The notes beneath the pieces are model-generated. The model ran no database searches. It saw only the letters and a program-made list of their open reading frames with translations, and was not told where the DNA came from. A stretch of 64,000 nucleotides of DNA from Chloroflexota bacterium. Lineage in GTDB: Bacteria > Chloroflexota > Limnocylindria > P2-11E. The first letter of the stretch is position 1. The number at the start of each line of letters is the position of its first letter. A program made the translations under genes and the position numbers. Below, piece after piece: positions 535 through 20,738 of this stretch. The stretch covers positions 1 to 64,000 of the forward strand of contig JACQAT010000009.1 of assembly GCA_016194865.1 (NCBI GenBank), read 5' to 3'.

Positions 535-1194
535 CTACGCCTTCCGCCCGGCCTCGCGCCGCGCGAGCTCTTCGCGGAAGGGCGCCATCTCGGCGAGCCG
601 TTTCGTCTTGTTCGTCGCATGCATCCGATAGCGGTAAAGGGGGATCCGCAGGTAGTGGATGCGGTAGCTCTCGCCGAGGCGCTTGCGCAGCTCCTCTTCC
701 TCAAGATGCCGGAAGCGCGCGTCGTAGAGGCCGGCCTTCGTCAAGAGATCCTTGCGGTACAGGATGCCGCACGAGATCGGGTGCTCCTCGGCGTGGCGGC
801 GCTCCTGCTTCTCGCCGGACTCGTCGGCCATGACGTAGTCGCAGGCGACGCCGAACGCGTCGTGGTTCTCCGCGAGGTACGTGCTCAGGAACAGCAGGAA
901 GTGCGCGTTCACGAAGTCGTCGGCGTCCACGCGGACGACGTACTGACCGAGGGCGGCCCGAATGCCGATGTTGGCCGACTCCGCGACGCCCACGTTCTCC
1001 TTGTTCGCGATGACGCGGAAGTTGGCGAAGCTCTTGAACGTCTCCACGATCTCGAGCGTCTGATCGTTGCTCGCGTCATCGACGAGGATCACCTCGTATT
1101 CGCTCGGTGACAGCGACTGCGAGAGGCACGAGCGCAGGCAGCGCTCGATGAACTCGCCGTAGTTGTGCGAGGTCACGATGATGCTCGCCCTCAC
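535..1194 (-). CDS. Family 2 glycosyltransferase
   Basis: A 219-residue cytoplasmic GT-A fold protein. It opens with the strand SIIVTSHNYG, has the nucleotide-binding VDDASNDQT segment near residues 38-46, and carries a DXD-type metal site RVDADDF near residue 90. It has no membrane helix and is near the minimal length for GT2 enzymes that add single sugars to lipid-linked glycans. The ATG overlaps the stop of the NeuB homologue in ATGA, so the two are probably translationally coupled. Donor and acceptor are unknown; by context it may add a residue next to a nonulosonic acid or decorate the glycan. Confidence 0.85.
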   Translation of the reverse strand: MRASIIVTSHNYGEFIERCLRSCLSQSLSPSEYEVILVDDASNDQTLEIVETFKSFANFRVIANKENVGVAESANIGIRAALGQYVVRVDADDFVNAHFLLFLSTYLAENHDAFGVACDYVMADESGEKQERRHAEEHPISCGILYRKDLLTKAGLYDARFRHLEEEELRKRLGESYRIHYLRIPLYRYRMHATNKTKRLAEMAPFREELARREAGRKA

Positions 1195-1925
1195 CGGACG
1201 GCGCTCGCCTGCTTCCGGAACGCTGTGGCGGTCCGATCCATCACTTCAATATCGTCCGCGAACGAGCGGATGGCGACGAGATCGTCCATGCGCATCGAGC
1301 CGAGATGCGCCTGCGCGGTGCTCTTCTGCAGAGACGGAGAAAGGGTGAAGTGCTTCTCGATCACTTTGGCCCCGCGCGAGATCGCGAGAAGACACGCGCT
1401 GATGCCGACGGTGTGGTCGCTGTATCCAACGAAGTCCGATCCTCGGAAGTCGGGCATCTGGACGTCCTCGAGGAGCGCGGGGTACTTCGCGACGCAGTAG
1501 AGGTACTCGACGTTCGGGGCGCGGAATGGCATCCCCTGACCCTTCCAGTCCCACTTGCCGAGCGACATGATCACCCGTCGGCCCGTCGCGACCGCGAGCT
1601 CGCAGAGCTCCGGGTAACGTTCGACCGTGATGCTCGCGATCTTGAGGATCTTAAAGTCGAGTTCGAGGCACCATTGAAGGCGTTCGCGGTCAAAGAACGA
1701 CGCGAAGATGTCGATCCGAAGCAGGTCCGCGTATTCCTTAAGCCTCTTCGTCTCGTCGAATGTAAGGCTCAGGTACGCCCGCTCCGCCGTCCCGTAGAGC
1801 GTTTGCGAGTCATAAAGCTGGAGCTTCACCGCGTGCGCGCCCGCCATCTTCGACTGCAGAATCATCTGTTCCGCGGTCGAGATGTCTCCCTCGTACTGGT
1901 TGTGCAGCTCAGCGATCAGATACAC
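1191..1925 (-). CDS. Short N-acetylneuraminate synthase-like protein (NeuB family, no SAF domain)
   Basis: 244 residues of NeuB-type TIM barrel: YLIAELHNQYEGD at the N-terminus, AVKLQLYD, KIASITV, then YSDHTVGI and EKHFTL, which correspond to conserved phosphoenolpyruvate and metal-binding strands. Classical NeuB/LegI/PseI enzymes are about 335-350 residues and end in an antifreeze-like SAF domain that caps the partner subunit's active site. This protein stops after the barrel. It may be a barrel-only synthase, a partner of another subunit, or a decaying copy. A full-length homologue lies at 18680-19690. Upstream is a remnant resembling a neuA 3' end, suggesting this was once a neuA-neuB pair. 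Confidence 0.75.
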   Translation of the reverse strand: MYLIAELHNQYEGDISTAEQMILQSKMAGAHAVKLQLYDSQTLYGTAERAYLSLTFDETKRLKEYADLLRIDIFASFFDRERLQWCLELDFKILKIASITVERYPELCELAVATGRRVIMSLGKWDWKGQGMPFRAPNVEYLYCVAKYPALLEDVQMPDFRGSDFVGYSDHTVGISACLLAISRGAKVIEKHFTLSPSLQKSTAQAHLGSMRMDDLVAIRSFADDIEVMDRTATAFRKQASAVR

Positions 1926-2082: not shown

Positions 2083-2559
2083 GTGGTCCCGTGTGGCGCG
2101 GCGCAGCCAAATGGCGTGACGCTGCCTCCCGCATCGCGCGAAGCCGTCGAAGCGCCATATGCGGAGATCGCTGTGGGATCGCGCGCTTCGTTCGTCCGCC
2201 GCGTCGTCGCCGCTGATATCGAAGCGTTCGCCGAACTTTCGGGCGATCGCAGTCCGCTGCATCTTGACGAGTCGTACGCCGCGACGACGGAGATGGGCGG
2301 CCGCGTTGCCCACGGCATGTTGATCGGCGCGTTCTTCTCGCAGCTCATCGGAATGCACCTTCCCGGCCGGTTCGCGCTGCACCTCTCGCAGAGTCTCGAT
2401 TTCGTCCTCCCCGTCCGCGCCGGAGACGAACTCGAGATCAGCGGAGAGGTGCTCGCGAAGCAGGACGCCACCCGCACCATCGTGCTGAGGACCGAGGCGC
2501 GCATCGTCGGCGGCGACATCGTGGCGCGCGGACGCGCCGTCGTGAAGGTCCTCCGATGA
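2083..2559 (+). CDS. MaoC-like (R)-specific enoyl hydratase/dehydratase
   Basis: A 158-residue hot-dog-fold protein. The hydratase-2 motif appears as SGDRSPLHLDESYA, placing the catalytic Asp at residue 54 and His at 59, followed by the GRVAHGMLIGAFFSQL helix typical of MaoC proteins. The family hydrates or dehydrates 3-hydroxyacyl/enoyl thioesters. The GTG at 2083 is the first in-frame start; a later start is possible because the first 25 or so residues look non-conserved. It is the first gene of the plus-strand acyl cluster and shares an ATGA overlap with the following SDR, so the pair probably interconverts a 3-oxo, 3-hydroxy and enoyl thioester on an acyl carrier. Confidence 0.85.
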   Translation: MVPCGAAQPNGVTLPPASREAVEAPYAEIAVGSRASFVRRVVAADIEAFAELSGDRSPLHLDESYAATTEMGGRVAHGMLIGAFFSQLIGMHLPGRFALHLSQSLDFVLPVRAGDELEISGEVLAKQDATRTIVLRTEARIVGGDIVARGRAVVKVLR

Positions 2560-3296
2560 GCGGGAGGTTCGCCGGCCAGAGGATCCTGGTGTGCGGTGCC
2601 GCGACCGGGATCGGCGCCGCGGCGGCCCGCCGTCTCGCGCGCGAGGGCGCCAACGTGTCGCTGCAGTACCGGACGAGAGCATCCGAGGTCGAGACGCTGC
2701 GGGACGAGCTACGGAACGAGGGCGCGGCGGTCGAGATCCTCGCGGCTGACCTCACGTTGCCCGCCGATGTCGATGCGCTCTTCAGCGGCGCCGATGGTTT
2801 CGGCGGGATCGTGCATTCCGTGTCCGCCCCGCTCCCGTCAGCGCGTTTCGACCGGCTGCCGTGGGACGAGTACCAAGCGCATTTCGATGTCGCGGTGCGC
2901 AGCGCCTACCTGATCCTGCGCGCGGCGCTCGCGCGACCCGCGCCGGCGCTGCGAGCCAGCGTGTTCGTGCTGACGTCGGCGACCCTGACCGCGCCGCCCG
3001 CCGACTGGGCCCCGTACCTCGTCGCGAAGCACGCGCTGTGGGCGCTCGTCCGATCCGCGGCGGTCGAGCTCGCGGCAAAGGGCATCCGCGTCAATTGCGT
3101 GTCCCCCGCGTTCACGACGACACCGTTGACCGCGGGGATCGATCCACGCGTGTCCGAGCTGATCGCGAAGAGCATCCCGATGCGGCGCCTCGGGACTCCC
3201 GAGGACGCGGCGAGCGCCATCGCGTACCTGCTGAGCGATGACGCCGCGTTCGTGACGGGAGCGAACCTGCCGGTCGGCGGCGGACTCGGGATCTGA
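2556..3296 (+). CDS. SDR-family oxidoreductase (FabG-like)
   Basis: 246 residues, the standard length of classical short-chain dehydrogenases. The cofactor motif reads GAATGIGAA (Gly 14, 18, 20), with the catalytic YLVAK at Tyr154/Lys158 and a preceding LTSAT serine. The C-terminus has the usual RVNCVSP and LPVGGG segments. NADP preference is suggested by the basic YRTR after strand 2. FabG-type enzymes reduce 3-oxoacyl-ACP. Translation is coupled to the MaoC gene by ATGA, and an FkbH protein and an ACP follow immediately, so an ACP- or CoA-bound acyl group is the likely substrate. A sugar substrate is possible but less likely beside MaoC. Confidence 0.87.
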   Translation: MSGRFAGQRILVCGAATGIGAAAARRLAREGANVSLQYRTRASEVETLRDELRNEGAAVEILAADLTLPADVDALFSGADGFGGIVHSVSAPLPSARFDRLPWDEYQAHFDVAVRSAYLILRAALARPAPALRASVFVLTSATLTAPPADWAPYLVAKHALWALVRSAAVELAAKGIRVNCVSPAFTTTPLTAGIDPRVSELIAKSIPMRRLGTPEDAASAIAYLLSDDAAFVTGANLPVGGGLGI

Positions 3297-3301
3297 CAGC
3301 G

Positions 3302-5497
3302 GTGCGGGACCGCGACGCGCTGATCGAGAGGCTGGCGTCGGCTGGGGATCCCCTCGGCGCGGCGGTCGCGGTCCTGGGCGCCGACCTCGGATCGCTCCTC
3401 GAAGCGACGGAGCGATTCGGTGCGCGACCGTCCACGCGCCATGCCCGAGCGCTGGTCGATCTCGGAGGATCGCTCGCGGCGCGGACACCACCCGTGGAGC
3501 TCGTCGAGGGAGGCACGCCCGCGCGGTCCTGGCTTCGCGCCGGGCTCCTGGCCGCGCGCGGCGAGCACGACGCCGCTTGCGACGCCGCCGCGAGCGCCGC
3601 ATACGACGAGGACCCGGAGCTGCGCTCGTTCCGCGAGCTCTTCTGCGCTCGTCAGCTGGCGCGCGCGAGCGATGCGGCGACGCGCTCGCGCGCCTGGCCT
3701 CACCTGCGGCGCGCCGCGCTCGCTGCGATCGACCTGGGAACGCTGCTGACGATCGACCGGCTGCGCGGGAAGCTGGCCGGCGACGGACAGCCGTCGGCTC
3801 GGCTGCGCATCCGGCTCGCGGTGCTCGGGACGCCGACCCTCGATCTCCTCGCGCCCGCGATCCGCGCGGCGTGCTTCGGACGCGGCATCAGCGCCGAGCT
3901 CTTCGTGGGCGGGTACGGTCTCTATCAGCAGGAGCTCCTGGGGCCCGACCCGCGCCTCGACGCGTTCGCGCCCGAGGCGGTCGCCCTGCTGATCGATGGG
4001 AGCTCCCTCGGCGTTGCCGACGAGTCGCCCGACCCCGACGCGGTGGTGGCTCGCGAGGTCGAACGCCTTGGATCGCTCTGGCGTCAGGCGCAGGAGCGCT
4101 GGAACTGCACGGTCTTCCAGAGCAACTTCGTCGTCCCGGCCGTCGACCCATACGGCGGCCTGAGCGCGAGCCTCCCCGGTGGGCGCGCGCAGGTGCTTCG
4201 CCGCCTCGGCCTCGAGCTCTGGAGCGCCGCGGCTCGCGAGTCGGGCGTGCACATCATCGACGTCGATCAGCTCGCGAGCGTCGTGGGAAAGACGGTGTGG
4301 GACGATCCAGCGGCGTGGCATGCGGCGAAGCAGCTCCCAGGTCCGAGGGCCGTCCCGACCCTCGCGCACGGTCTCGCCGGGATGCTCCAGGCGGCGGGTG
4401 GGCTCAGCGCGAAGTGTCTCGTCGTCGACCTCGACAACACGCTCTGGGGCGGTGTGGTCGGCGATGATGGCGTCGAGGGCATCGAGCTCGGCGATACGCC
4501 GGCAGGCGAGGCATACGTCGCCTTCCAGCGCTATCTGCTCTCGCTGTCACGTCGCGGTGTCGCGCTCGCCGTGTGCTCCAAGAATGACGACGCGGCGGCG
4601 CGTGCGCCATTCCGCGCGCACCCCGAGATGGTGCTCGGCGAGAGCGACTTCGCGCGGTTCATCGCGAACTGGGAGCCGAAGCCGGATAACCTGCGCGGGA
4701 TCGCGAAGGCGCTCAACATCGGGCTCGACCGCATCGTGTTCGTGGACGACAACCCGATGGAGCGCGAGCTCGTGCGCCGGACACTGCCGGAGGTACGCGT
4801 CGTCGACCTGCCGCTCGACCCGGCGGGCTTTCCCGGGGCCGTGGCCGGCACCCTCGCGTTCGAGATGCTCGCGCTCACCGGAGAAGATCGTCAGCGCGCG
4901 GCGTCATTTCGCGCCATGGGGCAGCTCGCCGCGGAGTCCAGCGCGAGCCCGCTGACGCTCGATGCCTTCATCGACTCCCTCGACATGACCGTCGACATCG
5001 CCCCGTTCCGCGAGCAGGACGTGCCGCGCCTCCATCAGCTCGTGAACAAGACGAACCAGTTCAATCTGACGACGACGCGGATGAGCGAGGTCGAGGTCAG
5101 GAAGCTGGTGGCCGACGAGCGCTTCTACGCGCGATCGGTGCGGCTCCGCGATCGATTCGGTGACCACGGACTGGTGGCGATCCTGATCGCGCGACACGTG
5201 CCGACCGAGCTGCGCGTCGAGCAATGGCTGATGAGCTGCCGCGTGTTCGGCCGGCGCCTCGAGGACGTCATGATCGCGCACGCCGCGGAGGCCGCGCTCG
5301 CCGGCGGGGCTGTCATGCTGACCGGCGTGTACAAGCCGACGGACAAGAACGGCCAGTTCCGCGACCTCTACGAGCGGCTGGGCTTCTCGCTCGCGCGCGA
5401 GGACGCTGACGGATCGTTGCTCTTCACCGCCGAGGCTCGCGCGATCGCGGCCAGGCAGGGTCCGAAGGTGCGTGTCGTGGCGCCCGCGACGAGGTGA
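3302..5497 (+). CDS. FkbH-like HAD-IIIC protein, candidate glyceryl-ACP synthase
   Basis: 731 residues, matching the long form of FkbH proteins: an N-terminal SGNH-like region, a central HAD domain and a C-terminal GNAT-like domain. HAD motif I is VVDLDNTLWGG with Asp376 and Asp378; VCSKND and FVDDNPMER supply later HAD motifs. The C-terminal GYKPTDKNG-type region appears here as VYKPTDKNGQF. Characterised FkbH enzymes take 1,3-bisphosphoglycerate, dephosphorylate it and load a glyceryl group on an ACP phosphopantetheine thiol. An ACP gene starts 7 nt downstream, as in tetronate and methoxymalonate pathways. The start is the GTG at 3302, six nt after the SDR stop. Function on this cluster's ACP is inference. 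Confidence 0.88.
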   Translation: MRDRDALIERLASAGDPLGAAVAVLGADLGSLLEATERFGARPSTRHARALVDLGGSLAARTPPVELVEGGTPARSWLRAGLLAARGEHDAACDAAASAAYDEDPELRSFRELFCARQLARASDAATRSRAWPHLRRAALAAIDLGTLLTIDRLRGKLAGDGQPSARLRIRLAVLGTPTLDLLAPAIRAACFGRGISAELFVGGYGLYQQELLGPDPRLDAFAPEAVALLIDGSSLGVADESPDPDAVVAREVERLGSLWRQAQERWNCTVFQSNFVVPAVDPYGGLSASLPGGRAQVLRRLGLELWSAAARESGVHIIDVDQLASVVGKTVWDDPAAWHAAKQLPGPRAVPTLAHGLAGMLQAAGGLSAKCLVVDLDNTLWGGVVGDDGVEGIELGDTPAGEAYVAFQRYLLSLSRRGVALAVCSKNDDAAARAPFRAHPEMVLGESDFARFIANWEPKPDNLRGIAKALNIGLDRIVFVDDNPMERELVRRTLPEVRVVDLPLDPAGFPGAVAGTLAFEMLALTGEDRQRAASFRAMGQLAAESSASPLTLDAFIDSLDMTVDIAPFREQDVPRLHQLVNKTNQFNLTTTRMSEVEVRKLVADERFYARSVRLRDRFGDHGLVAILIARHVPTELRVEQWLMSCRVFGRRLEDVMIAHAAEAALAGGAVMLTGVYKPTDKNGQFRDLYERLGFSLAREDADGSLLFTAEARAIAARQGPKVRVVAPATR

Positions 5498-5503
5498 CGA
5501 CCG

Positions 5504-5740
5504 GTGCTCGATAGCCGCGTGCTCCGTGTCTTCCGCGAGGTGTTCGACGACGAGCAGCTCGCCGTCAGCGACACGACGTCGGCGCGGGACGTGCCCGACT
5601 GGGACAGCCTCGCGCAGGTCAAGCTGGTGATCGCGCTCGAGCAGGAGTTCGACGTGAGGTTCTCGACCACCGAGATCGGGACCTGGGCCTGCGTCGGCGA
5701 TCTCAAGCGCGCGCTCCGCTCGAAGCTGGGCGCCGCGTGA
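5504..5740 (+). CDS. Acyl carrier protein (FkbH partner)
   Basis: 78 residues with the carrier signature DWDSLAQVKLVIALE; Ser35 in DSL is the predicted 4'-phosphopantetheine attachment site. The acidic helix II and the length match discrete ACPs such as those loaded by FkbH enzymes. The gene sits between the FkbH gene (7-nt gap) and the E2-like acyltransferase (GTGA overlap), so it most likely carries the glyceryl or related acyl group between these two enzymes. The GTG at 5504 is the only start that keeps helix I. Confidence 0.9.
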   Translation: MLDSRVLRVFREVFDDEQLAVSDTTSARDVPDWDSLAQVKLVIALEQEFDVRFSTTEIGTWACVGDLKRALRSKLGAA

Positions 5741-6681
5741 GCGCGCCGGCCGAGATCCGCGTCTCGCTCGACTGGGGCGGCGGTGAGCCCATGATCGTGC
5801 GCTGGCTCGTCGCGGACCGGGCGCCGGTCAAGCGTGGACAGGCCATCTGCGAGATCGAAGCGTCGAAGGCGACCGCCGACATCGTGAGCCCGGCCGACGG
5901 CATCCTGGTCGTCGTGATCCCCGACGGCGACGTGCGCGACCAGGAGGTCGTCGGTCACATCCACGCCGTCGGCGAGGCCCTGCCCCTCTCCGCGGCAGCG
6001 GTCGAGCGGGGGCCCGAGCCCGATGTCGAAGGCGGCACGCACGTGCCACGCTCGCTCCGCAAGGCGGCGGAGATCCGGACGCTCGAGGAGGGCAGGCGCG
6101 GCTCGTTGCCGAGCACGGTCATGCAGCAGCTCGTCGTCGGCGACCTGGTGGACCGTCTCCGAGATGGAGGCGCGTCCCTGACGGCGCTGGTGATCCTGGC
6201 GGTCGCGCGCGCGCTGCGGAAGCATCGGGCGTTCAACGCCAGCGCGTCCGATACCGGGGTCCTCCTGCACGATGCCGTGCGCATCGGCGTGGCGCTCGAC
6301 GTCGAGCCACATGGCCTCCGCGTGCCGATCGTGACCGACGCGGACACGAAAACCGTCGCAGAGATTGCGGGCGACCTGCAGATCCTGCTCTACAAGTACA
6401 TGACGAAGACGCTCGAGCCGGACGAGATCCGCGGGGCCACCTTCACGTTGACGGACCTCAGCTCATTCGGCGTCGCGTGGTCGGTGCCCCTGCTCGTCGG
6501 CAGGCAAGCGGCGATCCTCGGCCTCGGGATGATCCGGGGAGCGGACCCCAGGGACACGATGCTCACGTTCTCGCTCACGTTCGACCATCGGGTCGCCTCG
6601 GGACGCGAGGCGGCCTTATTCCTCAGCGACGTTCGCAAGCGGATCTCGGAGCACATGGTCTCGAACGACAGCGGCGCGTGA
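5737..6681 (+). CDS. 2-oxoacid dehydrogenase E2-like acyltransferase with lipoyl-type domain
   Basis: 314 residues. The N-terminal 75 or so form a biotinyl/lipoyl-type domain with the modifiable lysine in EIEASKATADI (Lys44). A short linker replaces the usual E1/E3-binding domain, and the C-terminal part (about 115-310) is a chloramphenicol-acetyltransferase-like E2 catalytic domain with the active-site FDHRVASG (His near 283). Genuine E2 proteins exceed 400 residues and sit with E1 and E3 genes, which are absent here. Stand-alone E2-like acyltransferases occur next to FkbH and ACP in tetronate clusters, where they acetylate the glyceryl-derived hydroxyl. A similar role, or transfer from ACP Ser35, is plausible. 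Confidence 0.82.
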   Translation: MSAPAEIRVSLDWGGGEPMIVRWLVADRAPVKRGQAICEIEASKATADIVSPADGILVVVIPDGDVRDQEVVGHIHAVGEALPLSAAAVERGPEPDVEGGTHVPRSLRKAAEIRTLEEGRRGSLPSTVMQQLVVGDLVDRLRDGGASLTALVILAVARALRKHRAFNASASDTGVLLHDAVRIGVALDVEPHGLRVPIVTDADTKTVAEIAGDLQILLYKYMTKTLEPDEIRGATFTLTDLSSFGVAWSVPLLVGRQAAILGLGMIRGADPRDTMLTFSLTFDHRVASGREAALFLSDVRKRISEHMVSNDSGA

Positions 6682-8039
6682 ACTACTCCCGGGTCGAGTT
6701 CCTCGTTCTCTTCGCGCTTTTCGCGGCGCTCTATTGGTGGATCCGCTCCCATCGCCAGCGGCTGCTGCTGCTGCTCGCCGGCTCGTTCGCCTTCTACGCC
6801 TCGGGGACCGCCGCGGACCTGCCGGTCCTATTGATGGTGATCGCGATCACCTACGGCGCGGGCCTGGCGATCGGGCGCTGGGATCGCCGCGCGAACACGA
6901 TCGCGGCCGTCGCGGTCACGCTCCTCGTGGCGGATCTCGCCGCCTTCAAGTACTCGGCCTTCATCGCCGAGTCGCTGCCAAGCGGGATGCTGGCACTGCC
7001 GACTCTGCTCGTGCCGCTCGGCATCAGCTTCTTCACGTTCGAGGCCATCGCCTACATCATCGATCTCAAGCGCGGCATGACGGATGTCGAGCGCTCGCCG
7101 CTCAACGTCGCCCTGTACATCGCGTTCTTCCCCCACCTGATCGCCGGACCGATCATGCGCGCCGACGATCTCATCCCGCAGCTGAAGCGCTATGTCGTCT
7201 GGGATACCGCCCGCTTCGTGTCGGGCGTCGAGCTCCTCGTCGAAGGGCTGGTGAAGAAGCGCCTGCTGGCCGATCCCGTGGGGCTCATCGCCGATGCGGT
7301 GTTCGCGGCGCCGGCGACCGTGGGCACGCCAGGCGCTTGGATCGGCGTGCTCGCCTACACGGTGCAGATCTATGCGGACTTCTCCGGGTACACCGACATG
7401 GCCCGCGGGATGGCGCGCATCCTGGGACTCGAGCTCCCAAAAAACTTCAACGGCCCGTACGTGGCGCACTCGGTGAGCGACTTCTGGCAGCGCTGGCACA
7501 TCACGCTTTCGACCTGGCTGCGGGACTACCTGTGGATCCCGCTCGGCGGGCTGCGGCACGGTCGCTTCCGGCCGTACTACACCGTCTTCCTCACGATGCT
7601 AATCGGCGGCCTGTGGCACGGCGCCGGCTGGACGTTCGTCGCCTGGGGCGCGTACCAGGGCGCCTGGCTCGCGTTCGAGCGGCGCTGGCGGTGGAGCGAT
7701 CGCCTGCCGCGCTGGCTCGCGATCGCGACGACGCTCTTCATCATCGTCAACAGCTGGGTCCTGTTCCGATCGCAATCGTTCGACGCGGTGTGGTCGTTGC
7801 TGAACGCGATGTACGTCCCCCACCATGGCTGGCTCCCGACGCGACGCGACATCGCCTACACGCTCGGCGCGTTCGTCCTCATCGTCGGCGCCATGGCCGT
7901 GCAGCGCGCACGGCCGCAGATCGCGGACGCGCTGCGGCAGCCGTCGATAGGCCGCGGGCTTATGTACGGCACCCTGGCGGCCGCCGCGATCATCGCCGCG
8001 CCGACGACGACGGTGCCATTCATCTATTTCCGCTTCTAG
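6678..8039 (+). CDS. MBOAT-family O-acyltransferase (AlgI/DltB-like)
   Basis: 453 residues with roughly ten to twelve hydrophobic segments. The MBOAT core DFWQRWHITLSTWLRDYLW (His274) and the catalytic histidine in GGLWHGAGWTF (His314) are both present. The family moves acyl groups from a cytoplasmic thioester across the membrane onto extracytoplasmic polysaccharide hydroxyls, usually with an SGNH-type partner. The start is the GTG at 6678, which overlaps the E2-like stop in GTGA; longer in-frame extensions fall inside the E2 gene and are not membrane-like. An ACP gene follows and an SGNH hydrolase gene converges on it, giving a complete acyl-transfer set. Confidence 0.9.
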   Translation: MNYSRVEFLVLFALFAALYWWIRSHRQRLLLLLAGSFAFYASGTAADLPVLLMVIAITYGAGLAIGRWDRRANTIAAVAVTLLVADLAAFKYSAFIAESLPSGMLALPTLLVPLGISFFTFEAIAYIIDLKRGMTDVERSPLNVALYIAFFPHLIAGPIMRADDLIPQLKRYVVWDTARFVSGVELLVEGLVKKRLLADPVGLIADAVFAAPATVGTPGAWIGVLAYTVQIYADFSGYTDMARGMARILGLELPKNFNGPYVAHSVSDFWQRWHITLSTWLRDYLWIPLGGLRHGRFRPYYTVFLTMLIGGLWHGAGWTFVAWGAYQGAWLAFERRWRWSDRLPRWLAIATTLFIIVNSWVLFRSQSFDAVWSLLNAMYVPHHGWLPTRRDIAYTLGAFVLIVGAMAVQRARPQIADALRQPSIGRGLMYGTLAAAAIIAAPTTTVPFIYFRF

Positions 8040-8088
8040 AGGCGCGGCCGGCCTTGCCGACGACACCGCCTGCGGGCAGACTCAGCGG

Positions 8089-8394
8089 GTGACGAACACG
8101 CTTCCGCGCGCGGAGGCTCTGGAGCTCGTGCTGCGCGAGACCCAGCGAGCGCTCGCGGAGAGCGATGAGAGCCGCGATGTCACGGCCGATGAGTCCACCC
8201 GGCTGATGGGAAGCCAGGCGCCGCTCAACTCGGTGGGTCTGGTGTCGCTCATCATCAGCCTCGAACGCGAGATCGACGCGCGCTTCGGGCGAAAGCTCGA
8301 GCTCGCCGACGATCGGGCGATGTCGCGGCGCCCCAGTCCATTCCGGACCGTCGGCACGCTGGCCGATTACATCGCCGAACGCGTCAGCGAGTAG
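8089..8394 (+). CDS. Second acyl carrier protein-like protein
   Basis: 101 residues with an ACP-like helix bundle and the attachment motif LNSVGLVSLI, Ser48 being the likely phosphopantetheine site. The usual Asp before Ser is Asn, which some carrier proteins tolerate. A 14-residue basic insertion (RAMSRRPSPFRT) before the last helix makes it longer than the first ACP. It lies 49 nt after the MBOAT gene and is probably in the same transcript. It could be the donor to MBOAT, as DltC is to DltB. The GTG at 8089 is the first usable start. Confidence 0.72.
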   Translation: MTNTLPRAEALELVLRETQRALAESDESRDVTADESTRLMGSQAPLNSVGLVSLIISLEREIDARFGRKLELADDRAMSRRPSPFRTVGTLADYIAERVSE

Positions 8395-8407
8395 CCCGAG
8401 CGCGCCG

Positions 8408-9547
8408 CTAGGGAACGAGCTGCAGCGGGCCCACGCGCCGCGACACGAGTCCTGTCAGGTAGGACGAGCTGGTGTACGGCGACATGCGAGCGCGCGCCGC
8501 GGGATCGTCCAGGATCCGCGCCAGCAGCCGCGCCGTGCACACCTCGCTGTAGTGGAAACCGTCCCATCGTTCTTCGCCACCGCAACCCACCTCGCTGGTC
8601 CGTTCCACGGTCACGAAGGGGATCCCCCGGCGCGCGAATACAGAGACCAGGGTGTCGCGGACCGCGGCGAACCCCGCGGCCGTGCCCGGGGTGGCGGCGA
8701 TCGCGTCCGCGACGCTGTCGCCGACCGGGTTGGAGAAGCCGACGACGGTCGTGCCCCGTCGCCGCGCGAGGTCGAGGAGCTCTTCGAGATCGGCGACGAC
8801 GGCCGGATCGGGATCCGAGAATCGGACATACACGCCGATCCCGTCGTTCACCAGGGTTCGCGTCCCCTCGTCGCGCTGCAGTGGTGTCTGCGCGCTGACC
8901 TTCGCCAGCTCCGAAGCCGGGTACGCGAAGGAGCCGTCAGGGCGGAAGCCCGCCCCGTGGACGATCGCCTCGAGTCCACGCCGCCGCGGCGGGATCGGCG
9001 CTCGTCCGAGCACCACGTCGCGGACCCGTTGATCCTCGACGAGCAATGGAAGCAGGCTCCGCGCCACGGCGATCGCGTAGTCGACCTCGGGCCCGGGTCG
9101 GCGATCGGGCCCGCCTTCGGCCGATTGGATCTCGGGGTTGAACTGCCAATAATCCAGACCGAGCAGCAGCACGCGTGGCGGATGCTCTGCGCTGAGCGCA
9201 GCGAATACGTCCCTCGCGGCACCGATGGGACGGGCCGCCCCCGCCGCGTTGTAGAAGCAGCCAGGACCTTCGCAGCCAGGGAACATGAACGAGCGGAACT
9301 CCTGCACCGCCGATGCGCCGAGGACAAGGAGCTGCGGCGCTTCCATCTTCGCCTGCTCGAGCTTGTACCTCCTCCAGTCGGTCGCGAACCAGGTGCCGTG
9401 CAGCTCGACCGTGCCACGGGGCGCTCCGTACGCGAAGACCTCGCCCAGGGCGGCCAGGCGGCCGATCCAGAGCGTGAACGGAAGGATCGTCAGGGTGAGC
9501 GTGAGCAGGAGGCCGATCACGAATCGGCGCGGAGCGCTCGCGATCAC
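8408..9547 (-). CDS. SGNH-hydrolase-like, membrane-anchored acyl-transfer partner
   Basis: 379 residues. An N-terminal helix (about residues 8-30) anchors a large outside domain. The block LLVLGASAVQEF places a nucleophile Ser79 in a GxS setting, and WDGFHYSE near residue 328 supplies the Asp-x-x-His pair typical of the SGNH fold. Proteins of this build (AlgJ/AlgX, PatB, DltD-like) act with MBOAT proteins to finish O-acyl transfer on polysaccharides. It lies 13 nt from the plus-strand cluster but in convergent orientation. The start is the GTG at 9547 inside a GTGA overlap with neuA; the longer frame upstream is neuA antiframe. Confidence 0.78.
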   Translation of the reverse strand: MIASAPRRFVIGLLLTLTLTILPFTLWIGRLAALGEVFAYGAPRGTVELHGTWFATDWRRYKLEQAKMEAPQLLVLGASAVQEFRSFMFPGCEGPGCFYNAAGAARPIGAARDVFAALSAEHPPRVLLLGLDYWQFNPEIQSAEGGPDRRPGPEVDYAIAVARSLLPLLVEDQRVRDVVLGRAPIPPRRRGLEAIVHGAGFRPDGSFAYPASELAKVSAQTPLQRDEGTRTLVNDGIGVYVRFSDPDPAVVADLEELLDLARRRGTTVVGFSNPVGDSVADAIAATPGTAAGFAAVRDTLVSVFARRGIPFVTVERTSEVGCGGEERWDGFHYSEVCTARLLARILDDPAARARMSPYTSSSYLTGLVSRRVGPLQLVP

Positions 9548-10122
9548 GTCCGAGCGCCCCGAGCCCGCAGCCGTCCCTCGACGAGCGTGACGTCGGCAGC
9601 CGTGTGCACGTCGACGACATCCGCGATGACCACTCCGCAATGCACGCTCAGCGCGCGCTGCCGCACGACCTCCGCGCGCATGATCCGGAACGCACCGTTC
9701 TGCACGAGCCGGGCGTCAACCGAGAAGACCTCCCACAGTCCGTGCGCGCGTAGCTTGTCGATGCCCTCATCGAGCATCGCTCCCCGCAGCTCCGGGGAGT
9801 TCGCCTGCACCGAGATGACCAGCTCGAATCGCTCGCCGCGCTTCTCGAGCGTATCGAGCGCGTGCACGATCGCGTCCATCTTGAACACGGCGTGGTGCGC
9901 GAGCTCGGGCGGGCGCTCGATCACCGTGGCGCCGCTCGCCGTGGCAACGGCGGCGATCTCCGCATCCTCGGTGCTCACGTAGACGTCCGTGACGTACGCG
10001 CTCTCCCGGCATGCGGCCACGGACCAGGACACCATGGGCGCGCCGAGGACAGGCTCGATGTTCTTGCGCGGCAGGCGCTGAGAGCCACCGCGCGCGGGGA
10101 TGATAGCCGCGACGCGTGCCAT
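9544..10122 (-). CDS. neuA: Acylneuraminate cytidylyltransferase (CMP-sialic-acid synthetase family)
   Basis: 192 residues. The N-terminal CTP-binding motif IPARGGSQRLPRKNI (residues 8-22) is diagnostic of NeuA/PseF/LegF/KdsB enzymes. VQANSPEL, FRIMRAE and the C-terminal VVIADVVDVHTAADV follow the family pattern. The product activates a nonulosonic acid as CMP-sugar for glycosyltransferases. It is at the short end for the family (usually 220-230). It begins 2 nt after the ABC exporter and overlaps the SGNH gene by GTGA. Which sugar (sialic, legionaminic or pseudaminic) cannot be told from sequence. Confidence 0.87.
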   Translation of the reverse strand: MARVAAIIPARGGSQRLPRKNIEPVLGAPMVSWSVAACRESAYVTDVYVSTEDAEIAAVATASGATVIERPPELAHHAVFKMDAIVHALDTLEKRGERFELVISVQANSPELRGAMLDEGIDKLRAHGLWEVFSVDARLVQNGAFRIMRAEVVRQRALSVHCGVVIADVVDVHTAADVTLVEGRLRARGART

Positions 10123-12058: not shown

Positions 12059-12775
12059 GTGACCACGGAAGCGCTCATCCGGCCAGATGGATGGCTGTCG
12101 GGGGTCATGGCGCGCGCGGCCTTCGCTGTCGACGTGCCGTCGCGTGACGCGTCGCTCCGAGAGCTCGCCCGACACGCGCGCGCGCATCGCGGCGCGTTCT
12201 ACACCGCGAAGCTGCCGGTGGATCGCGTTGCCGACGTCCGCGCGCTGTGCGAGATCGGTTTCGCCGTGGTCGACACGGGCGTCACCTTCGAGCGACCCAT
12301 GGGGAGCGTGACGGCGACGCTCCGTGATGTCCCGATCACGCTCGCGGACGACGAGAGCGGAGAGCAGGCCGCGCTCGTCGCCATGCGATCGTTCCAGTGG
12401 TCGCGCTTTCATCTCGACCCCCGTATCCCGCGCGAGACCGCCGACCGCATCAAGGGCGAATGGGTCCGGAGCTACGTGCGGAAGAGCCGTGGCGACGCGC
12501 TGCTGGTCGCGAGCGCGGGAGGGAGCGTCGTCGGTTTCGTCGCGGCCCTGGTCGCCGATGGGTCCGCCGTCATCGACCTCATCGCCGTCGATCCGTCGCA
12601 CCAGGGAGCGGGCATCGGCCGGGCGCTCATCGCGCGTCACATCGACGCCTACGCGAGCACGGTCGCTCGCTATCGGGTCGGCACGCAGGCGGCGAACTCG
12701 GCGTCAGTGCGGCTGTACGAGTCGCTCGGCTATCGGCTTCACGGGGCGACGTACGCCCTGCACCTGCACGCCTAG
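12059..12775 (+). CDS. GNAT acetyltransferase, WecD-like amino-sugar N-acyltransferase
   Basis: 238 residues. The C-terminal half carries the acetyl-CoA binding motif AVDPSHQGAGIGRAL followed by a LYESLGY end typical of GNAT enzymes. The middle segment SRFHLDPRIPRETAD resembles WecD/RffC, which N-acetylate dTDP-4-amino-sugars. It is a lone plus-strand gene inside a glycan region and could N-acylate a 4-amino sugar. Its stop shares the palindrome CTAG with the stop of the convergent gene at 12772. Confidence 0.8.
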   Translation: MTTEALIRPDGWLSGVMARAAFAVDVPSRDASLRELARHARAHRGAFYTAKLPVDRVADVRALCEIGFAVVDTGVTFERPMGSVTATLRDVPITLADDESGEQAALVAMRSFQWSRFHLDPRIPRETADRIKGEWVRSYVRKSRGDALLVASAGGSVVGFVAALVADGSAVIDLIAVDPSHQGAGIGRALIARHIDAYASTVARYRVGTQAANSASVRLYESLGYRLHGATYALHLHA

Positions 12776-18679: not shown

Positions 18680-19690
18680 TCACTCCAGATCCGCAGGCGC
18701 GAACGCGTGGCCCGCGGGCACGTCACGCGTGAGCGCGTGCCCGACGACGCGGGCCTCGTCCCCGGGCGCGATCCCGCCGCCTGGTCGCAGCCAGTCGAGG
18801 TCCTCGCTCGCGACGCGGTGACCCGCGACGAGAGCGCGTGCCGCGCTGATGGATCGGCGGTACGCGATGCGCCCGCTCGACTCTCCCGGCTGCACCGGCT
18901 TGCCGCTCGTCCCGAGCAGCTCGCTGACCAGCTTGATGCGGACGACGAGCTCGCGGAGGTCGGCCGGGTCCGCGGACAGCTGGTGGTCGCGGAAGCCGGG
19001 TTTCGTCTTGTCGAGCGTGAAGTGCTTTTCGACAAGGCGCGCGCCGAGCGCGACCGCGGTCAGCGCGGCGTCGATGCCGAGGGTGTGGTCGGAGTAGCCG
19101 ACCGTCAGGCCCAGGCGTTGCGCCAGGAACGGCACGCTCAGGAGATTGGCCTCGCGCGGGTCGACCGGATACGCGCTCACGCAGTGCAGCACCGCGAGGC
19201 TCTCGCGGGTCCGCGCGCCGCCCCGGATCCCCTCGATAAGGCGCACCGTGCCCTCGATCTCGTCGATCGTCGCCAGGCCCGCGGAGATGATGAGCGGCCG
19301 GTCGCTGCGCGCGGCCAGCTCGATCAGCGGTACGAAGGTGTTGTCACCCGAGGCGATCTTGAGCGCGTCGACGAGCGGGATCAGGAATCGTGCGCTCTCG
19401 AGATCGAATGGGGTGGATAGGAAGAGCAGGCCGAGAGAGCGGGCGAGCTCGGCGAGCTCCGCGTGGGCCTCGTACGGCAGCTCGAACGAGCGCAGCCGCG
19501 TGAGACGGGCCTCGTCGAGGGGTGACTGGAATCGCTCGGCCTTGAAGGTCTGGAGCTTCACGGCCTGCGCGCCGGTCTCGCTCGCGCGCTTCACGAGCTC
19601 GCGGGCGACGGGGAGATGGCCCTCGTGGTTGTTGCCGATCTCCGCGACAACGAGCACCTCGCGACCGAGGTCGACCCGCCCGATCAGCAT
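18680..19690 (-). CDS. neuB: N-acetylneuraminate synthase family, full length with SAF domain
   Basis: 336 residues, the usual NeuB/LegI/PseI/SpsE length. The barrel has VVAEIGNNHEGHL, AVKLQTFKAERF, KIASGDNTF, LHCVSAYPV and YSDHTLGI, and EKHFTLDKT near residue 230. The SAF cap follows with RRSISAARAL and AFAPADLE. It condenses phosphoenolpyruvate with a six-carbon amino sugar to give a nine-carbon nonulosonic acid. The ATG at 19690 is preferred; the frame extends upstream into the epimerase gene. It lies in line with an aminotransferase, an oxidoreductase and a CMP transferase. Confidence 0.92.
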   Translation of the reverse strand: MLIGRVDLGREVLVVAEIGNNHEGHLPVARELVKRASETGAQAVKLQTFKAERFQSPLDEARLTRLRSFELPYEAHAELAELARSLGLLFLSTPFDLESARFLIPLVDALKIASGDNTFVPLIELAARSDRPLIISAGLATIDEIEGTVRLIEGIRGGARTRESLAVLHCVSAYPVDPREANLLSVPFLAQRLGLTVGYSDHTLGIDAALTAVALGARLVEKHFTLDKTKPGFRDHQLSADPADLRELVVRIKLVSELLGTSGKPVQPGESSGRIAYRRSISAARALVAGHRVASEDLDWLRPGGGIAPGDEARVVGHALTRDVPAGHAFAPADLE

Positions 19691-19700
19691 CGCGACGGGC

Positions 19701-20738
19701 TCAGCGCGCGAGCGCGGCGGCGCTGGAGGTGCCGAGGAGCTTGCGATACCACTCGATGTAGATCGGGAAACCCCGCTCGATGGGGAACGCGGGCTCATAG
19801 CCGATGAGCTCGCGTGCTTTCTCGACGCTCAGCGTTCCGCGGAAGGGCACGAGCCGGTCGCGCTCGACGTACTGGAGCTCGACCTCGGGAAAGTGCGTTC
19901 TGATGATCCCGGCGAGATCCTTGATGCTCCGGGCGGCGCCATAGGTCAGATTGAAGACCTCGTTGCGCGCGGCGGGATGCGTGATCGCGAGCGATATCCC
20001 CTGGACCAGGTCGTCGATGTACGTAAAGTCGACCCTCTCGTCGCCGCCCCCGTCGATGCGCAGCGGCGATCCGTCGATCGCGCTCTCGATGAAGACCTGC
20101 CCGACGCGCCGGCTCACGCAGCGCGGCCCATAGAGCGCCGAGGGACGCACGATCGTGTAGCTGAGGCCGAAGACCTGCTGGTACGCGATGACCATCTTCT
20201 CGCCCGCGACCTTCAGGGCGCCATAGATGCCGATCGGGTCCAGGGGGTGATCCTCCGTGACCGTGTCGCTGCGGAAGTTCCCATAGGCCATGCTCGACGA
20301 GAGGAAGACGAAGTGCTCGACGTGGCCGCGCGCGGCATCGAGCGCGTTCTCGAGGGTCCGCAGGCTGTGGTCGAAGGTGCTGTACGGATCCTTGTTCGAC
20401 TTGCCCGCGTGCGACACGGCTGCGAGGTGCACGATCGTCTGCGGCTTCAGCTCGGTGAGGATGCGCGTGAGCGCGTGATAGTCACGCGCGTCCTGCGTCA
20501 CGATCGGTACACCCGCCGCGCGCAGCAGGTCGAGGCGCTCATTGATGATCCGCAGATAGAGCTCACGGTTGTGGAAGTCCGGCAGCGATGCGCTGAACTC
20601 GCCGAGGTTGTTCACCTGGAGGCTGTCGACGATGGTCACGTTGGCGCCGGCCGCGCGCAGCGAGAGTGCGAGGTGGTGGCCGATGAATCCGGCCCCGCCG
20701 ACCAGCGTGATCCGCCGATCTCGTAGTCCTTCGATCAC
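19701..20738 (-). CDS. NAD-dependent nucleotide-sugar epimerase/dehydratase (extended SDR)
   Basis: 345 residues. The Rossmann motif is VGGAGFIGHHLA and the catalytic motif is IYGALK (YxxxK) near residue 165, preceded by a SSSMAYG serine. This resembles UDP- or dTDP-sugar 4-epimerases and 4,6-dehydratases. The gene overlaps the aminotransferase stop by 4 nt, so it probably works with it on the same nucleotide-sugar intermediate, such as making a 4-keto sugar. Exact substrate is not determinable. Confidence 0.83.
   Translation of the reverse strand: MIEGLRDRRITLVGGAGFIGHHLALSLRAAGANVTIVDSLQVNNLGEFSASLPDFHNRELYLRIINERLDLLRAAGVPIVTQDARDYHALTRILTELKPQTIVHLAAVSHAGKSNKDPYSTFDHSLRTLENALDAARGHVEHFVFLSSSMAYGNFRSDTVTEDHPLDPIGIYGALKVAGEKMVIAYQQVFGLSYTIVRPSALYGPRCVSRRVGQVFIESAIDGSPLRIDGGGDERVDFTYIDDLVQGISLAITHPAARNEVFNLTYGAARSIKDLAGIIRTHFPEVELQYVERDRLVPFRGTLSVEKARELIGYEPAFPIERGFPIYIEWYRKLLGTSSAAALAR

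Follow-up and report, generated by a model that had tools for sequence, protein, structure and literature searches.

The window analysed here is a 64,000-nucleotide stretch of a Chloroflexota bacterium (contig JACQAT010000009.1, positions 1 to 64,000; contig C9 of assembly GCA_016194865.1, which is 1.38 Mb long and 66% complete). It contains a compact run of acyl-handling genes that converges on genes of the sialic acid type, a candidate acyl carrier protein (ACP)-dependent system for surface glycan acylation. Genes were called from open reading frames (ORFs) together with Pfam and NCBIfam profile matches. The plus strand carries, in order, a MaoC-like (R)-hydratase/dehydratase (2083..2559; Pfam MaoC, 64 bits) with the D-x4-H motif (SGDRSPLH); a short-chain dehydrogenase/reductase (SDR) ketoreductase (2556..3296; adh_short_C2, 163 bits) with the YxxxK motif (YLVAK); an FkbH-type glyceryl-S-ACP synthase (3302..5497; TIGR01686, 296 bits against a cut-off of 147); ACP1, the presumed glyceryl carrier (5504..5740; PP-binding, 24 bits; DSL serine); a lipoyl-E2-like acyltransferase (5737..6681; 2-oxoacid_dh, 132 bits; Biotin_lipoyl, 33 bits); a membrane-bound O-acyltransferase (MBOAT) of the DltB/PatA/AlgI type (6678..8039; Pfam MBOAT, 90 bits); and an ACP2-like protein (8089..8394), a possible direct donor to the MBOAT. 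On the minus strand, a membrane-anchored SGNH-fold transferase, presumed to be the MBOAT partner (8408..9547), is coupled to a NeuA-like CMP-sugar synthetase (9544..10122; CTP_transf_3, 69 bits). GTGA start/stop overlaps join ACP1 to E2 (5737), E2 to MBOAT (6678), and neuA to the SGNH gene (9547), so translational coupling is likely at these junctions. The gene families, order and strands given in the initial annotation were all recovered in this way, with ACP2 and the SGNH protein identified on weaker evidence than the others.

The catalytic residues expected of the main components were present. FkbH retains the HAD motif DLDNT and the C-terminal SCR cysteine, and D376, D378 and C646 were invariant in a 12-sequence alignment. 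The FkbH-type enzyme Tmn16 forms glyceryl-S-ACP in vitro (PMC3625739). The window FkbH is also extended at its N-terminus by about 170 aa (3302-3810), a stretch with no match in most relatives. When the MBOAT was aligned with DltB (6bug), both active-site histidines (His289 and His336 of DltB; PMC11035591) were matched, within WQRWHIT and GLWHG. Its last six residues, FIYFRF (8019-8036), match FXYXXF exactly; this is the acyl-shuttle motif found in MBOAT-SGNH transferases, and its tyrosine is acylated in PatA and, for Dlt, on DltX (PMC12148441). The SGNH protein scored below threshold against Lipase_GDSL_2 (14.8 bits); G87, S89, N110, D339 and H342, and the GAS and DGFH blocks, were invariant in the alignment, and its predicted model (pLDDT, a per-residue confidence score, 65) matched SGNH hydrolases, with DltD (6pfx) at rank 5 and PatB (8tlb) at rank 45. 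Among the ORFs gathered, its best sequence relative was an MBOAT-adjacent SGNH gene (L208, E 5e-8). ACP2 had no Pfam match; it has an ACP-like layout with an aligned serine (LNSV), a helical model of low confidence (pLDDT 59.5), and weak matches in a fold search, with a carrier protein at the top.

The recurrence of this gene set was surveyed at 98 FkbH loci, made up of the best 80 from a scan of 84,980 species (one genome each) and 18 loci from the same phylum as the window. The scan for the 80 loci was based on likeness to the window FkbH alone, and MBOAT was disregarded. In 44 of the 98 loci an MBOAT gene lay less than 3.5 kb from FkbH, and no locus had one at 3.5-10 kb, a contrast which argues that the set is no chance assembly. 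MaoC was found within 3.5 kb in 18 loci compared to one at 3.5-10 kb, and ACP within 3.5 kb in 83. An SGNH-like gene occurred together with MBOAT in 29 loci. The loci with both FkbH and MBOAT represent at least 11 named phyla. The data support the earlier suggestion of an ACP-dependent acyl-decoration system using MBOAT and SGNH, and they run opposite to the survey outcome that the initial annotation had named as contrary to it, in which MBOAT/SGNH genes never travel with FkbH/ACP genes.

MaoC, SDR, FkbH, ACP and MBOAT all occurred together in six loci, with examples in Mitsuokella (L148), Synergistales (L154), Lachnospiraceae (L136), Magnetobacteriaceae (L144) and Planctomycetota (L081); MaoC, SDR and MBOAT accompanied FkbH in Planctomycetota, Bacillota, Synergistota, Nitrospirota and Pseudomonadota. 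The gene directly after MBOAT in the Synergistales locus encodes an ALGX-family SGNH protein above the Pfam cut-off. FXYXXF was present near the C-terminus in 38 of the 44 FkbH-linked MBOATs, and within the last six residues in 37. On pSymB of Sinorhizobium meliloti (L212, 4856-10737), the order VOC-MBOAT-SGNH-ACP-FkbH adjoins capsule export genes, and the MBOAT ends in FLYQGF; the SGNH-like gene there carries the annotation TonB-dependent receptor. Two other neighbours were recorded during the survey: a glyoxalase-fold (VOC) protein in 11 loci (for example, L154, 2659-3150), which might epimerise D-glyceryl to L-glyceryl, and an adenylating enzyme (acyl-CoA ligase- or nonribosomal peptide synthetase (NRPS)-like) in 13 loci (for example, L149, 5528-7201).

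The origin of the FkbH-MBOAT pairing was addressed with a tree of 66 MBOAT sequences, in which the MBOATs unlinked to FkbH all came from one phylum and several branches were long. The window MBOAT paired with an unlinked MBOAT from the same class (support 83/91). It did not fall within the starred clade formed by 30 FkbH-linked MBOATs, and joining it to that clade was disfavoured by the approximately unbiased test (p-AU 0.020). A single origin for all FkbH-linked MBOATs was rejected (p-AU 0.0047), and the pairing therefore arose repeatedly; that FkbH and MBOAT were united more than once argues for a shared job. The same tests rejected, for the MBOAT, the idea that all the parts were inherited together. 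Neither FkbH nor ACP was found beside the 20 same-phylum MBOATs nearest in sequence.

The lipoyl-E2-like protein is the unusual component of the set. Its lipoyl domain is joined to a catalytic domain, in which DHRVASG replaces DHRxxDG, and no E3_binding match to a peripheral-subunit-binding domain was obtained. The E2 of an ordinary 2-oxoacid dehydrogenase complex was rejected as an identity, as no E1 lies alongside; transketolase/E1-type genes were found on other contigs of the genome only. The order FkbH-ACP-E2 equals that of AbyA2-A3-A4 in the tetronate glycerate operon, and these parts also occur in the tetromadurin cluster. E2-like neighbours were present in 9 of 30 Streptomycetaceae FkbH loci, and none were found when FkbH loci on Streptomyces plasmids were checked. 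These nine E2s, taken as tetronate type by their gene order, formed their own clade (100/100), lacked the lipoyl domain and kept DHRxxDG; the window E2 fell outside it. Its sister (99/95) was the E2 of another genome of the same phylum (L260), and no further close relatives were found in 350 genomes. At L260 (1165-5364), a fused E1 alpha-beta, E2 and ACP/AcpS lie in a row within a glycan cluster, possibly a 2-oxoacid-dehydrogenase-like route to acyl-ACP. An E2-like gene within 3.5 kb of FkbH occurred in none of the 98 surveyed loci, and a regular place for E2 in FkbH modules was rejected on this ground.

From these genes, motifs, codon overlaps and their recurrence, we infer, with a probability of roughly 0.6, an ACP-fed MBOAT-SGNH system that acylates a surface glycan, in which the acyl group would pass from FkbH to ACP, to the MBOAT tyrosine, to the SGNH serine, and into a glycan ester. 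FkbH would dephosphorylate D-1,3-bisphosphoglycerate and load the glyceryl group onto ACP1. MaoC and SDR may convert the carrier-bound glyceryl to pyruvyl and then lactyl by dehydration and reduction, or they may supply a 3-hydroxyacyl group; glyceryl would be the simplest acyl group, with lactyl or 3-hydroxyacyl as alternatives. The lipoyl-E2-like protein would shift the acyl group between phosphopantetheine arms, from ACP1 to ACP2 or from CoA to ACP. The MBOAT would accept it from ACP at the cytoplasmic face, onto the tyrosine of FIYFRF, and the SGNH serine would receive it outside and esterify the exported glycan; the gene cluster for this glycan also produces one or more nonulosonic acids. 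It is a tentative extension, which we hold as doubtful, that the window belongs to a widespread and so far unrecognised class that places phosphoglycerate-derived acyl groups (glyceryl, or lactyl where MaoC/SDR are present) on surface glycans by way of FkbH, ACP, MBOAT and SGNH; such a class would have been assembled several times independently, with the window adding acyl handover between carriers by the lipoyl-E2.

Several points weigh against an ACP-fed acylation system. The SGNH gene lies on the strand opposite to the operon and is coupled to neuA. No MBOAT was near FkbH in any of the 18 loci from the window's own phylum. The acyl group itself is a tentative choice; dehydration and reduction to lactyl have a precedent in bryostatin, and lactyl formation here is guesswork, as is transfer by E2 to or between phosphopantetheine arms, which we propose with low confidence. 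MaoC/SDR and FkbH/ACP also stand beside neuA/neuB at loci lacking MBOAT, so the glyceryl branch can serve another purpose. One such locus, in Elusimicrobia (L102), has the same divergent layout, in which MaoC-SDR-FkbH-ACP faces away from neuA/neuB, and no MBOAT was found there; another, in Coxiellaceae (L155, 682-13966), combines pseudaminate-type genes, their names read from the sequence, with MaoC-FkbH-ACP-FabH-GNAT and has neither SDR nor MBOAT.

Since glycerate and nonulosonate genes recur together also without MBOAT, the strongest rival is that this locus holds two separate, adjacent pathways. The acid made by FkbH-ACP1, with MaoC/SDR, would be N-linked in the cytoplasm to a nonulosonic acid precursor, perhaps by the GNAT at 12059-12775, and MBOAT plus SGNH would perform ordinary O-acetylation from acetyl-CoA. 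We consider this unlikely. In a FkbH tree from which 13 of the 98 FkbH rows were excluded by a motif filter, the window FkbH grouped with those of L149 and L102 (Shimodaira-Hasegawa-like approximate likelihood ratio test, SH-aLRT, 90-91, not starred), both of which have neuB. The layouts of L102 and L155 fit the same explanation, as does the kinship of the window MBOAT with MBOATs unlinked to FkbH, and glyceroylated pseudaminic acid has a precedent in Campylobacter (PMC3068675). However, the MBOAT gene overlaps that of E2 in a shared operon, with an ACP gene next in line, the unlinked MBOATs have no ACP neighbour, and FkbH is paired with MBOAT far more frequently than expected by chance. It is highly improbable that the operon makes a secreted tetronate-type small molecule bearing the acyl decoration, despite the shared FkbH-ACP-E2 order, the tetromadurin cluster and the nine Streptomycetaceae loci. 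This product was rejected because the annotated neighbours include no ketosynthase or polyketide synthase and the E2 belongs to another clade and carries a lipoyl domain that tetronate E2s lack; the surrounding genes, moreover, are glycan genes. That the genes were merely gathered in a variable glycan island, with no joint function, would agree with how common each family is in such islands and with the absence of FkbH from the nine same-family genomes searched, but the near/far contrast, the repeated independent pairing and the start/stop overlaps make it very unlikely.

The initial annotation had further linked the system to sialic acids, and this part was partly supported: few FkbH loci had NeuA or NeuB nearby, but neuB was present at those of the two closest FkbH relatives in the tree. 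Glycerate chemistry beside nonulosonate genes does recur, including at loci lacking MBOAT. A nonulosonic acid is plausible as the acyl acceptor since the nearest FkbH relatives adjoin neuB, and we put it forward as a possibility that falls short of even odds.

The proposed ACP-fed system was compared with known ones. In the Dlt pathway (DltA, DltC, DltB, DltX, DltD), a carrier protein likewise donates the acyl group to a DltB-type MBOAT, from which it passes to an SGNH protein, and carriers lie near the MBOAT in the window, with ACP2 directly after it and ACP1 upstream. Unlike in Dlt, no DltA-type D-alanine ligase was found among the annotated neighbours, and charging of the carrier would fall to FkbH; the MBOAT bears its own shuttle motif, in place of one on the DltX microprotein; and the setting is a surface glycan cluster, not teichoic acid genes. 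PatA/PatB, AlgI/AlgJ/AlgX and WssH/WssI share an MBOAT ending in FXYXXF and an SGNH partner, but they are thought to use acetyl-CoA without carrier proteins (PMC12148441), whereas the window operon holds ACPs and an ACP-charging enzyme. Functionally, the system would resemble Dlt or PatAB but draw on a new donor, and it is not Dlt itself, as it has no DltA and no DltX. The tetronate glycerate operon (AbyA1-A5; Mad7, 8, 16, 17, 18) shares FkbH, ACP and an E2-like acyltransferase; it differs in its FabH-like ketosynthase and Agg5-like dehydratase, neither of which is among the annotated genes of the window, and in its Agg4-type E2, a clade that excludes the lipoyl-bearing window E2. Campylobacter jejuni makes di-O-methylglyceroyl pseudaminic acid, which likewise joins a glycerate-derived acyl group to a nonulosonic acid pathway; there the acyl group is N-linked at C5, and the available portion of the source mentions no MBOAT (PMC3068675). 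Among the papers found, only those on the suomilide/aeruginosin clusters named both FkbH and MBOAT; in these clusters, as separate steps, FkbH primes an NRPS and MBOAT acylates a sugar.

Searches of 5.39 million open papers gave no description of FkbH acting together with MBOAT on glycans, and the earlier view that no described pathway has exactly these parts agrees with this, with Dlt, PatAB, the tetronate glycerate operon and Campylobacter glyceroyl-pseudaminic acid as partial precedents. Among MBOAT-SGNH systems, a carrier-protein donor is stated for Dlt only (PMC12148441). If the proposal is correct, it would add a second, phylogenetically broad carrier-fed branch in which surface glycans are decorated directly from a glycolytic intermediate, and it would open the glycerate esters of bacterial polysaccharides, and perhaps the lactate esters too, to genetic study.

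The operon lies in a surface glycan cluster that includes nonulosonate genes. To the left, a NeuB-family gene (1191..1925, minus strand; 244 aa; Pfam NeuB, 111 bits), which lacks the C-terminal SAF domain, and a GT2 gene both diverge from the operon. To the right of neuA are an ABC transporter, the GNAT gene and a capsule-synthesis-like protein, and farther right are a full NeuB that includes the SAF domain, a second cytidylyltransferase, a DegT aminotransferase, a Gfo/Idh protein, a WecA-like protein and glycosyltransferases. This one cluster holds two neuB and two neuA-like genes, with the SAF-bearing NeuB at 18683-19798.

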